This document shows, one piece after another, positions 17,514-29,606 of a stretch of DNA of 64,000 nt. Where the stretch lies: assembly GCA_003153475.1 (NCBI GenBank), contig PLYT01000005.1, positions 26,781 to 90,780 on the forward strand, read 5' to 3'. Origin of the DNA: Betaproteobacteria bacterium. GTDB taxonomy: Bacteria > Pseudomonadota > Gammaproteobacteria > Burkholderiales > Casimicrobiaceae. A program made the position numbers and the translations under genes. Position 1 is the stretch's first letter. The number at the start of each line of letters is the position of its first letter. Under the pieces are notes generated by a model, which did no database searches, was not told the origin of the DNA, and worked only from the letters and a program-made list of their open reading frames with translations.

Positions 17514-17542
17514 TCCGACTATCGACGATGGAGACTTCCCGC

Positions 17543-18193
17543 ATGCGCATCCTCTTTGGCCTCGCCCTGTTCGCGCTGACCGCGCAGACGGCGCTGGCGC
17601 AGAACGAGATCGTCGCCACCGTTCTCGACGACAATGGCAAGCCGGTGGCCGATGCGGTCGTCGTCGCCGTCCCGGCCGACGGCGGCATACGCCTGCCGAC
17701 CCGACGCGACGCGGTCGTCGACCAGGTCGACAAGGAATTCACACCGAAGGTCAACGCGATCCTGGTCGGCACGCCGGTGATCTTCCCGAACCACGACAAC
17801 GTCCGGCACCACGTCTATTCGTTCTCGCCGGCCAAGCGCTTCGAGCTGCCGCTCTATGCCGGCGTGCCTGCGCAGCCGGTCGTATTCGACACCCCGGGCG
17901 TCGTCATCCTCGGCTGCAACATTCACGACTGGATGGTCGGTTACGTCTACGTGTCCGAATCGCCGTATTTCGCCAAGACGCGCGCCGACGGCAAGGCGGT
18001 GATCGCCGACGTGCCGGGGAAAACCTACATCGTGCGCGTATGGCATCCGCAGCTCGAAGGCTCCGAAGCCATGACCAAAAGAACGGTCGACCTTTCCGCA
18101 AAGCGGCGGGTCGACGTCGAATGGGCGTTGAAGCTCAAGCCGGAATTGCGCATGCGCCGGTCGCCCGTCGGCGACCACAGTGGGCACTATTGA
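17543..18193 (+). CDS. Periplasmic cupredoxin-like protein ('methylamine utilization' type)
   Basis: 216 residues from an ATG with GGAG 8 nt upstream; a longer ATG start 15 nt earlier lacks this. A signal peptide ends at 'AQTALAQNE'. Then comes an Ig-like or carboxypeptidase-regulatory strand region ('ATVLDDNGKPVADAVV') and a plastocyanin-like fold with copper-type ligands in 'NHDNVRHHVYSF' and 'ILGCNIHDWMVGYV' (His, Cys, His, Met arrangement). Such proteins are often annotated as methylamine utilization proteins, but no mau genes are here. It probably binds copper in the periplasm and works with the adjacent barrel. Confidence 0.82.
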   Translation: MRILFGLALFALTAQTALAQNEIVATVLDDNGKPVADAVVVAVPADGGIRLPTRRDAVVDQVDKEFTPKVNAILVGTPVIFPNHDNVRHHVYSFSPAKRFELPLYAGVPAQPVVFDTPGVVILGCNIHDWMVGYVYVSESPYFAKTRADGKAVIADVPGKTYIVRVWHPQLEGSEAMTKRTVDLSAKRRVDVEWALKLKPELRMRRSPVGDHSGHY

Positions 18194-26090: not shown

Positions 26091-26450
26091 CTACTCGACC
26101 CGCAACATGCCTTTCATGTTCGGGTGCAGCGTGCAGATGTAGCTGTACTCGCCGGCGGTGCGGGCGACGTACTTCCAAGAACCGCCAGCCGCGATGTCAT
26201 GCGAATCGAACTTGCCCTGCGCCGTGACCGTATGCGGAAACGGATCCTTGTTCGTCCAGATCACCGTCTCGCCGCGCTTGACCGTCAGCGTCTCGGGATC
26301 GTATTTCAGCCCGTCGATCACGACGCTATGCGTCGCCGGCTTGCCGGCGCTCGCGCCGCCAGCCGTCCCCGGCGCATAGGTCGCGGCGCCCGGGAACAGC
26401 GCGCCCGCGCAGATAAGCGCGAGCGCGAGCCGCTGAGTGCGGGTTCTCAC
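26091..26450 (-). CDS. Plastocyanin/azurin-like cupredoxin
   Basis: 119 residues from a GTG overlapping the stop of the upstream DUF4142 gene (GTGA). A signal peptide ends near 'GAATYAPG'. The mature protein is a single type-1 copper domain: first His in 'KDPFPHTVTAQG', then 'YSYICTLHPNMKGML' supplying Cys, His and Met. It should be a periplasmic blue-copper electron carrier or copper binder. Third gene of the sigma factor/DUF4142/cupredoxin operon. Confidence 0.92.
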   Translation of the reverse strand: MRTRTQRLALALICAGALFPGAATYAPGTAGGASAGKPATHSVVIDGLKYDPETLTVKRGETVIWTNKDPFPHTVTAQGKFDSHDIAAGGSWKYVARTAGEYSYICTLHPNMKGMLRVE

Positions 26451-26959
26451 ATCTTGGACTGCAGCATCTTGGCGTGCTCGAGGTGTGCGACGAACGCCGG
26501 GCGGACCTTGGTGATCAGCGCCTTCAGCTCCTCGTTCTTGGCGCTCGGCAGCAGCGTCTTGTCGACCGCGTCCAGAACCTGCTCGTGGTAGGCGACTTCG
26601 TGGTCGATGTAGGCCTTGTCGAACGCGTTGCCCTTGAGCGTCTTCAGGTTCTTCAGGTTCGCCTCGCCGCCGGACTTCAGGCTCTGGCTGGTCGGATTGT
26701 CTTCCGGCTTGACCTTGAGCTTGGTCACCAGCGCGACCGCCTGTTTATTGACGCCGCTGTGGTCGGTGACCATCTGCTTGCCGAAGTCCCTGACGTCCTT
26801 GGTGCTGCCCATCTTTTCCGCCAGCTTGCCGGCGTCGATGTCGACCTGGTTGGCGGTGACGACGATGTGCGCGATCTGCGCGTCGTTCGGGGCCTGCGCG
26901 GCGACGCCGCCGGCGGCCAGCAATAGAGCGGTTGCGACTACGATACCGATGTTCTTCAT
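26447..26959 (-). CDS. DUF4142 exported protein
   Basis: 170 residues from the ATG with AAGGAGATCGTC upstream; the longer ORF in the track is out-of-frame leader. A signal peptide ends at 'GGVAAQAPND'. The mature part is all-helical with the DUF4142 pattern: 'AQIAHIVVTANQVDIDAGKLA', 'DFGKQMVTDHSGVNKQAVAL' and 'AYIDHEVAYHEQVLDAVD', resembling ferritin-like four-helix bundles with conserved His. Role unknown; members are periplasmic and often stress-associated. Located between the ECF sigma gene (83 nt upstream) and the cupredoxin. Confidence 0.9.
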   Translation of the reverse strand: MKNIGIVVATALLLAAGGVAAQAPNDAQIAHIVVTANQVDIDAGKLAEKMGSTKDVRDFGKQMVTDHSGVNKQAVALVTKLKVKPEDNPTSQSLKSGGEANLKNLKTLKGNAFDKAYIDHEVAYHEQVLDAVDKTLLPSAKNEELKALITKVRPAFVAHLEHAKMLQSKM

Positions 26960-27042
26960 GACGATCTCCTTAGAGTGAAACATTGCCCTGCTTTGGCCTA
27001 TACGTACGGCGGGCCCGGCCGGATGCGCCGGGGGAAAATCGA

Positions 27043-27753
27043 TCAGTCCTGCGCGCGCCAGCGCGCGAGCACGCCGGCGACGATACGGTCGCACCGCTCG
27101 CCGGCAAATCCGAAGGCTTGCACGGTGGCGATGTCGACTTCGCGCGCCATCGCTTCGCGCAGCAGCGCCCGCGCACGGAACGTCCTGCTGCGCACGGTCG
27201 CCGTGGGCACGCCGAGGCATGCAGCCGCCTCGTCGACCGACATCTCCTCGACTTCGCGCAAAATGAACGCCGTCCGGAACTGGTCCGGCAGCGCATCGAT
27301 GTTGCGCTCCAGCAGCCGGCGGACTTCGCCGCGACTCGCGGCGGCATCGGGCTGCTCGGAACTGGCTTCGGTCATGGCGCCCTCCTCGGCGTCGCGCTCG
27401 CCGGCGCTCCACGGGTCGGACTGCGGACTGAACGGCAGAACGACACCGGCACGCTTGCGCTTGCGCAATAGCCCATACGATTCGTTGATGACGATGCGGG
27501 CGAGCCAGGTCGACAGGCGCGCGCCGCCCCGGAAGCCCGCGATGTTGCGAAACGCGGCGAGATAAGCGTTCTGGACCGCGTCTTCGGCCTCCGCGTCGTC
27601 GCGCAGGATCGAGCGGGCGATGCGGTAGAGCATCTGATTGTGGCGCCGCATCATCAGCTCGAACGCGCGCTCGTCGCGCTGACCGATGCGGCGGGCGAGC
27701 TCGACGTCGTTCAGCGCATCGGCGGCGGCTGGCGCAAGGGTGGTCGTCTTCAC
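27043..27753 (-). CDS. ECF-family RNA polymerase sigma factor
   Basis: 236 residues from a GTG with AAGGA about 12 nt upstream; the track's 310-codon version would run into the divergent NnrU gene. Region 2: 'MMRRHNQMLYRIARSILRDDAEAEDAVQNAYL'-type helices and 'FRGGARLSTWLARIVINESY'. Region 4: 'LPDQFRTAFILREVEEMSVDEAA' with the recognition helix 'VPTATVRSRTFRARALL'. No anti-sigma factor lies next to it. The gene is first in an operon with DUF4142 and the cupredoxin, which are its likely targets. Confidence 0.92.
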   Translation of the reverse strand: MKTTTLAPAAADALNDVELARRIGQRDERAFELMMRRHNQMLYRIARSILRDDAEAEDAVQNAYLAAFRNIAGFRGGARLSTWLARIVINESYGLLRKRKRAGVVLPFSPQSDPWSAGERDAEEGAMTEASSEQPDAAASRGEVRRLLERNIDALPDQFRTAFILREVEEMSVDEAAACLGVPTATVRSRTFRARALLREAMAREVDIATVQAFGFAGERCDRIVAGVLARWRAQD

Positions 27754-27930
27754 GGTTGCAGTCAGTCCTTGCACATTGGATGACGATCCCGGAGCCGGCG
27801 TTCCGGCACGATACCCCGCCCTAGCGGGCGGCGGTCCCGCCGGTTGCCAGCGGCCCTCCGGCGGGACCGCGACAAGTGATCGGTCAAGGATGGATAATCC
27901 CCGCTTGCTTCCTACCATCGGGGCTTCCTC

Positions 27931-28509
27931 ATGAGCTTGTTGATCCTCGGCCTGATCGTTTTTCTTGGCGGACATTCAGTGCGCATCTTCGCCGATTCCT
28001 GGCGCAACGGGCTGGTTGCCCGCATCGGCGAAGGTCCGTGGAAGGGACTGTACTCGCTGGTGTCGATCGCGGGATTCGTCTTGCTCATCTGGGGCTATGG
28101 ACGGGCGCGGGCGGACACGATCGTGCTCTGGCAGCCGCCGCCGTGGACCCATTATCTGGCGGCGATATTCACGCTGATCGCCTTCGTTCTGGTGGTCGCG
28201 GCGTACGTGCACGGCACGCGTATCAAGAGCGCGCTTCATCATCCGATGATCCTCGGCGTCAAATCCTGGGCGTTCGGGCACCTGCTCGCCAACGGAACAC
28301 TGGCCGATGTCGTGCTGTTCGGCGCCTTTCTCGCCTGGGCGATCGTAGACTTCGCCGCCTCGCGACGCCGGGACCGCGCCGCCGGCACCGTCTATCCCCC
28401 GGGCACGGCGGCCCGCGATGCGATTGCCGTCGCGATCGGCATTGCCGTCTGGGCGATCTTCGCTTTCTACTTGCACGGGCGCTGGATCGGAGTGCGGCCG
28501 TTCGGCTGA
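27931..28509 (+). CDS. NnrU family membrane protein
   Basis: 192 residues. Begins 'LLILGLIVFLGGHSVRIFA', the usual NnrU opening with a conserved His in TM1; further helices at about 42-60, 75-97, 118-136 and 168-186. Conserved 'HHPMILGVKSWAFGHLLANG' follows TM3. NnrU was named from nitric-oxide-reductase regions but is widespread and its activity is not settled. It is divergent from the ECF sigma gene, 178 nt away. Confidence 0.88.
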   Translation: MSLLILGLIVFLGGHSVRIFADSWRNGLVARIGEGPWKGLYSLVSIAGFVLLIWGYGRARADTIVLWQPPPWTHYLAAIFTLIAFVLVVAAYVHGTRIKSALHHPMILGVKSWAFGHLLANGTLADVVLFGAFLAWAIVDFAASRRRDRAAGTVYPPGTAARDAIAVAIGIAVWAIFAFYLHGRWIGVRPFG

Positions 28510-28976: not shown

Positions 28977-29012
28977 CAGCAGGAACGAATGCGTCAACCA
29001 GGAGAAGCGAGC

Positions 29013-29606
29013 ATGAGTCTTCGGCAGTTGCTGGCCTTGCTGGCGAGCGTGTTGCTCGCCGTGACCGCGGTGCAGGCGCAGACCAGCGTACGCGTGCGCG
29101 GAACGATCACCGCCATCGACGGCAACGTCGTGTCGGTCAAATCGCGCGACGGGCGCGACCTGAAGATCACGCTGGCGGACAACATGGCCGTCTCCGTGGC
29201 CAAGGCGATCAAGTTCGAAGACATCAAGCCGGGGGACAGCCTCGGCGTCACGTCGATGCCCGGCGCGGATGGCATGCCGGTGGCGATCGAGGTGCACTAC
29301 CGGCCGCCCGACGTTCCCGAGGGACAAGGCCCGTGGGATCTTCAGCCCGGAGCGACGATGACCAATGCCAGTGTGGCGGCGGTCGTCGCCGGTACCGGCA
29401 ATCGCGAGCTGACCTTGCAATTCAAGGGAACGACGCAGAAGGTCGCCGTCCCTGAAGGCGCGGCGCTGGTGCGCACCGTTCCCGGCAGCCGCAGCGACCT
29501 CACTCCTGGCGAATACCTATTTACCGTCGCGCACGGCACAGGCGATCAGAGCTTGAGCGCCGCCCGCATTCAGGTAAGCAAGGACGGCGTCAGGCCCCCC
29601 TTGTAA
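29013..29606 (+). CDS. Exported OB-fold-like protein (DUF5666-type)
   Basis: 197 residues from the ATG with AGGAGAAG upstream; the track start 24 nt earlier lacks a site. A signal peptide ends at 'TAVQAQTSVRV'. The N-terminal part, 'VRGTITAIDGNVVSVKSRDG' and 'DLKITLADNMAVSV', is a small beta-barrel repeat as in DUF5666-type proteins, followed by a second strand-rich part ('ELTLQFKGTTQKVAVPEG'). Periplasmic. Function unknown. A palindrome upstream suggests repression. Confidence 0.75.
   Translation: MSLRQLLALLASVLLAVTAVQAQTSVRVRGTITAIDGNVVSVKSRDGRDLKITLADNMAVSVAKAIKFEDIKPGDSLGVTSMPGADGMPVAIEVHYRPPDVPEGQGPWDLQPGATMTNASVAAVVAGTGNRELTLQFKGTTQKVAVPEGAALVRTVPGSRSDLTPGEYLFTVAHGTGDQSLSAARIQVSKDGVRPPL

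Follow-up and report, generated by a model that had tools for sequence, protein, structure and literature searches.

We found that an ECF sigma factor, a secreted DUF4142 protein and a secreted blue copper protein are encoded by what appears to be a self-contained operon, which is probably autoregulated by its own sigma factor without an anti-sigma factor and whose likely output is a pair of metal/redox proteins in the periplasm. Judged by sequence comparison, this reading has a probability of about 0.6. The operon is located in a window (the whole stretch of DNA analysed, 64,000 nucleotides) of contig PLYT01000005.1 from a Betaproteobacteria bacterium of the Casimicrobiaceae (GenBank assembly GCA_003153475.1), a 3.26 Mb draft genome that is about 74% complete. 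The initial annotation had described three genes with tight or overlapping junctions, and all three open reading frames were confirmed on the minus strand with these positions and junctions. The features of the operon are as follows:

27775-27804, minus strand: predicted ECF promoter, with the -35 element GGAACG (27804-27799), a 16-nt spacer and the -10 element CATCCAAT (27782-27775); conserved before the first operon gene in relatives.
27043-27753, minus strand: ECF sigma factor of the PRK11922 family, 236 aa, GTG start; Pfam and NCBIfam matches, alignments, AlphaFold model with pLDDT 86.
27046-27114, minus strand: C-terminal extension of the sigma factor, residues 214-236, a helix with F-x-F-x-G-x-R-C-D-R-I-V; alignments and AlphaFold model.
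26447-26959, minus strand: secreted DUF4142 protein, 170 aa; PF13628 match, alignment, AlphaFold model, Foldseek.
26091-26450, minus strand: secreted amicyanin-like type-1 copper protein, GTG start; PF00127 and PF13473 above cut-off, conserved position after DUF4142.

The sigma factor matched Sigma70_r2 and Sigma70_r4_2 of Pfam above cut-off and had regions 2 and 4 only, the composition that defines an ECF sigma factor. It scored 282.3 bits against the NCBIfam model PRK11922 (NF008888; curated cut-off 204), with nearly the whole model covered, including its C-terminal part, and its AlphaFold model consisted of the helices of regions 2 and 4 and one C-terminal helix. The DUF4142 protein scored 139.7 bits against PF13628 (gathering cut-off 27). 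The cupredoxin matched the general Copper-bind model PF00127 (35.9 bits, cut-off 21.2) and was likewise above cut-off for PF13473, while its score against the amicyanin model TIGR02657 (41.9 bits) was below the cut-off of 110.2; the type-1 copper ligands read from its sequence were complete (His73, Cys106, His109 and Met112, in CTLHPNM). The sigma stop and the DUF4142 start are separated by 83 nt, and the GTG start of the cupredoxin gene overlaps the DUF4142 stop. The longest sigma open reading frame begins at 27975 (310 aa). This start was rejected, since the promoter at 27804-27775 falls inside the extension and homologues begin near 27753, so that the GTG at 27753, as initially annotated, is the likely start.

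Conservation of the triad was checked by a search for DUF4142 homologues in the source genome and 60 related genomes. This identified ten close homologues (67-77% identity, plus the window's own). A cupredoxin gene followed DUF4142 in all ten, and the sigma gene was upstream in seven, one of these being interrupted by a contig end. Distant DUF4142 paralogues of the same genomes (L012-L018) had neither a cupredoxin nor the sigma factor as neighbour. A set of 80 named loci was found with two peptide patterns, one containing the RCDR motif, and the cupredoxin followed in 27 of the 27 with DUF4142. On this comparative evidence, the triad is a conserved operon and not a chance arrangement.

A search for a shared sigma-specific promoter motif had been proposed as a check on the operon, and such a motif was found before its first gene. 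The consensus GGGAACG-N16-CATCYAAT was read upstream of the sigma gene, and in some relatives was repeated upstream of DUF4142; the window copy is CGGAACG-N16-CATCCAAT, at 27804-27775. Searched as GGAACGN14-17CATCYAAT, this copy was the single match in the assembly of 3.26 Mb. In 64 genomes of the family, the strict pattern was matched 19 times, against none for a reversed-pattern control, and most of the 19 were directly upstream of a PRK11922 sigma gene or a DUF4142 pair. There was one match across 232 class-wide genomes. Of 220 genomes sampled from the order, five contained the motif, six times in all; the two genomes of the sample with the sigma factor above cut-off (G057 and G058) were both among these five. 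Of 79 readable named loci, 62 had the motif no more than 300 nt from the first operon gene, with a spacer of 16 nt in every case, and most of the remainder had a near match, for example CATCGAAT or CGTCTAAT. The promoter is specific enough for regulon mapping in many betaproteobacteria.

The position of the motif followed the order of the genes. Paraburkholderia and a few other lineages have the genes in the order DUF4142-cupredoxin-sigma, with the motif upstream of DUF4142. In two genomes (G016 and G005; loci L050 and L054) the motif preceded the DUF4142-cupredoxin pair although the sigma gene was on a separate contig. This distribution is the pattern expected for an autoregulated sigma factor with the DUF4142-cupredoxin pair among its targets. 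We infer that the sigma factor recognises the GGGAACG-N16-CATCYAAT promoter; if it does, DUF4142 and the cupredoxin would be direct targets and the sigma factor would feed back positively on itself. Because the motif moves with the gene order and precedes the pair in trans, the two genes are most probably controlled directly by an autoregulated sigma factor, rather than providing its sensor. Further promoter copies in the source genome were sought at two mismatches, which gave four matches against six control matches in an assembly that is 74% complete. With no copies above the control count, a wider regulon in this genome was rejected, and this operon may be the whole of the local regulon.

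In other genomes the motif was also found upstream of a secreted cytochrome related to the RoxA-like protein of L092 (L064, L070, L075, L097), an NAD-binding oxidoreductase (L089, L125, L138), small secreted helical proteins (L078, L089) and GTP cyclohydrolase I (L058, L146, L147). What these genes have in common is redox chemistry, a good part of which takes place in the envelope. Counting both types of GTP cyclohydrolase (FolE or FolE2), such genes were observed beside a PRK11922 sigma gene or behind the motif in L146, L147, L058, L076, L145 and L139, with FolE in L058, L146 and L147. Locus L078 carries a tandem pair of PRK11922 sigma genes with one promoter copy each, followed by ferritin-like and cytochrome c genes.

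The genes accompanying the sigma factor differed between lineages. The DUF4142-cupredoxin cassette was present in 27 of the 80 named loci, and a Tat-secreted Ferritin_2 protein with a small cytochrome c in 28; a further seven had a ferritin-like protein with no cytochrome found (35 of 80 with a ferritin-like protein in total), and 18 had neither cassette. No mixed cassettes were found among the 80. On a tree of the sigma factors, the label for the two cassettes changed about seven times by parsimony, with at least 3-4 gains or losses forced by the starred branches. The cassettes have been swapped several times, as whole pairs of helical bundle and electron carrier. Since whole pairs are exchanged, the sigma factor is only loosely tied to any single cassette, and DUF4142 more probably serves as an output than as a sensor. 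The repeated exchange ties two little-understood families of secreted proteins, DUF4142 and the Tat-secreted Ferritin_2 proteins, to small electron carriers; it predicts that both share a metal/redox function in the periplasm, and thereby provides a likely role for DUF4142. In two loci without either cassette, a gene for a SirB-family membrane protein was directly downstream of the sigma gene (L073:5678-6067 and L079:3475-3864).

The AlphaFold model of the DUF4142 protein (pLDDT 87) was a helical bundle. Its best solved neighbours in Foldseek were structures of CopM with bound Cu or Ag and of DUF305 proteins, followed by Dps-like ferritins. The E-values were weak (best 0.003), with substantial TM-scores by query of 0.64-0.74 for CopM and DUF305 proteins together; for CopM these were 0.64-0.69 by query and 0.78-0.83 by target, at 14-15% identity. 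Sequence search against the PDB gave chance-level matches only. CopM of Synechocystis is a periplasmic DUF305 protein with tight Cu(I) binding and a protective effect against copper (PMC4335983). Unlike CopM, the window protein scored below the cut-off of the DUF305 Pfam model (25.1 bits, cut-off 27), had no HH motif in the alignment and contains few methionines. The residues D66, H67, E121, H125, H159 and H162 were invariant in the DUF4142 alignment and could form a metal site. The protein is predicted to fold like CopM, and may bind copper.

Taken together, these data suggest a mechanism in which the sigma factor would recognise the promoter at 27804-27775, in positive feedback on its own operon, and would drive two secreted products: a blue copper protein as electron carrier, and a CopM-like bundle with copper or another metal as its probable ligand. 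During metal or redox stress, the task of these two proteins in the periplasm might be to sequester metal, to oxidise it or to transfer electrons. Elsewhere, this type of sigma factor would drive an equivalent pair made of different components, a ferritin-like bundle with a small cytochrome c. The sigma factor itself might be switched by its C-terminal helix, if modification of Cys221 or binding of metal to it changed the availability of the sigma factor to RNA polymerase. We infer this self-switching step, which is separate from the promoter and anti-sigma results obtained by sequence comparison.

Cys221 (codon 27093-27091, minus strand) is the sole invariant cysteine of the C-terminal extension, in which the AlphaFold model predicted a separate helix at residues 218-235 with high confidence. 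It was present in 11 of 11 full-length members found by HMM, a set independent of the RCDR peptide pattern, and in 0 of 18 paralogous ECF sigma factors. It was also present in 97 of 97 homologues of a wider set, a count that is partly built in as this set was partly selected by the RCDR motif. We therefore tentatively consider Cys221, in its additional helix, as a candidate built-in switch, and as a better sensor candidate than DUF4142. It is conceivable, though we regard it as doubtful, that the whole family are one-component regulators that sense redox state or metal via Cys221, need no anti-sigma factor and drive interchangeable pairs of bundle and electron carrier. Sigma factors of the kinase-activated ECF43 type have lost the acidic DAED-type motif of region 2.2 and have a Ser/Thr kinase gene as neighbour. 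The window sigma factor does not fit this type: E57 is invariant and D58 nearly invariant in region 2.2, and retention of these acidic residues is evidence against kinase-type activation; no kinase was noticed among the neighbours when the listed loci were read by eye.

The absence of an adjacent membrane anti-sigma factor had been remarked on previously, and this observation held in a topology test for a membrane anti-sigma-like gene directly downstream, with RpoE-type paralogues of related genomes as positive control. Such a gene was present in 17 of 17 RpoE-type paralogues, and no genuine one was detected in 87 loci with the PRK11922 sigma factor in beta- and gammaproteobacteria. Five of the 87 loci were flagged and rejected, as the flagged segments were signal peptides of over-extended starts or belonged to unrelated secreted proteins. 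The window sigma factor thus lacks the adjacent anti-sigma factor of the RpoE-RseA type. A scan for HxxxCxxC in neighbours within 3 kb of 80 loci produced one real candidate, in L115, and this zinc-anti-sigma-like protein was rejected as a partner because it follows a separate ECF sigma factor of its own. Unlinked regulators of ECF sigma factors exist, and this one could be controlled by an anti-sigma factor whose gene is located at another site in the genome. We consider this unlikely, given the contrast between the 87 loci and the RpoE-type paralogues and the assignment of the L115 protein to another sigma factor.

The proposal of the initial annotation that DUF4142 is a periplasmic sensor or a copper/redox partner fared differently in its two parts. 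Its gene adjoins the sigma gene and a secreted metal-type bundle is predicted for its product, but no conserved membrane partner could carry a signal inward, 35 of the 80 loci with this type of sigma factor have a ferritin-like gene in its place, and in L050 and L054 it is apart from the sigma gene yet behind the sigma factor's promoter. Replacement and the promoter in trans both argue that DUF4142 is an output, and control of the sigma factor by DUF4142 is highly improbable; a role as partner of the cupredoxin is plausible, with a predicted fold nearest to CopM and DUF305 proteins. It is also possible, if not the reading we favour, that there is no post-translational switch at all, and that the sigma factor is made on demand, in response to growth phase or another regulator acting on the promoter, with autoregulation merely amplifying the response. 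Autoregulation and the missing anti-sigma factor fit this account, and transcriptionally controlled ECF sigma factors without anti-sigma factors are known, such as HrpL and SigE (PMC8999054). In stationary Burkholderia thailandensis, one of the most strongly raised genes encodes a DUF4142 protein (BTH_I0617; PMC12322963), although this is possibly another DUF4142 gene than the orthologue of that in the window. However, synthesis on demand leaves unexplained the helix with an invariant cysteine in every full-length member and its absence from paralogues, and a second promoter or operator was not identified.

ECF sigma factors without anti-sigma factors are already known. For the question of how such sigma factors are switched, the PRK11922 family provides a concrete and testable candidate, with one residue, one promoter and a positive control in its paralogues. 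No mention of PRK11922 was found in the literature searched. NF008888 has so far been a model name, for which a promoter, regulon and choice of cassette are described here. A search of the literature for DUF4142 together with ECF sigma factors likewise found none. The closest parallels differ in part from the window operon. RpoE4 of Sinorhizobium meliloti (ECF26), in an operon with SorT, a cytochrome c and the pseudoazurin Azu2, is also an autoregulated ECF sigma factor driving secreted redox proteins including a blue copper protein, but that system has an adjacent anti-sigma factor (SMc04050), control of sulfite oxidase and no DUF4142 (PMC3511301). Membership of the sulfite-related ECF26 group was rejected as an explanation, as RpoE1 and RpoE4 have anti-sigma factors. 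CorE of Myxococcus xanthus (ECF238) resembles the window sigma factor in having no anti-sigma factor and a cysteine-bearing C-terminal extension, which in CorE is a metal-redox switch (PMC8999054). CorE extensions contain several cysteines, whereas the window sigma factor has one short helix with a single invariant cysteine and lacks the cysteine-rich C-terminal domain of the CorE-like group. By analogy, a Cys221 switch would resemble CorE in principle and not in detail. MllJ, a ferritin-like DUF4142 protein of the methylolanthanin cluster, is another case of DUF4142 in a metal-related cluster with an ECF sigma factor; unlike the window operon, this cluster has a TonB receptor, an anti-sigma factor and siderophore genes, with no cupredoxin listed (PMC11317620).

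Several other genes of the window were examined. An NnrU gene (27931-28509, plus strand) is divergent from the sigma gene, and was rejected as a functional partner because it was not found near the sigma factor in relatives; among the named loci read, an NnrS gene is divergent from a PRK11922-type sigma gene in two (L073 and L079). A secreted protein of 205 aa (28989-29606, plus strand) gave a weak match, below cut-off, to ExtJ of selenite/tellurite reduction operons. A second cupredoxin locus had been noted 8 kb away, and probably corresponds to the gene at 17528-18193 (plus strand). This stood in part: the gene encodes a secreted, cupredoxin-like protein with HHVYSF and GCNIHDWM motifs, but it had no match to Pfam cupredoxin models and no copy of the operon promoter motif was found upstream. 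A profile search of the window for another cupredoxin or DUF4142 found none. Next to the gene at 17528-18193 are genes for a GGDEF/EAL-type protein and for a secreted protein of 310 aa that belongs to no known family.
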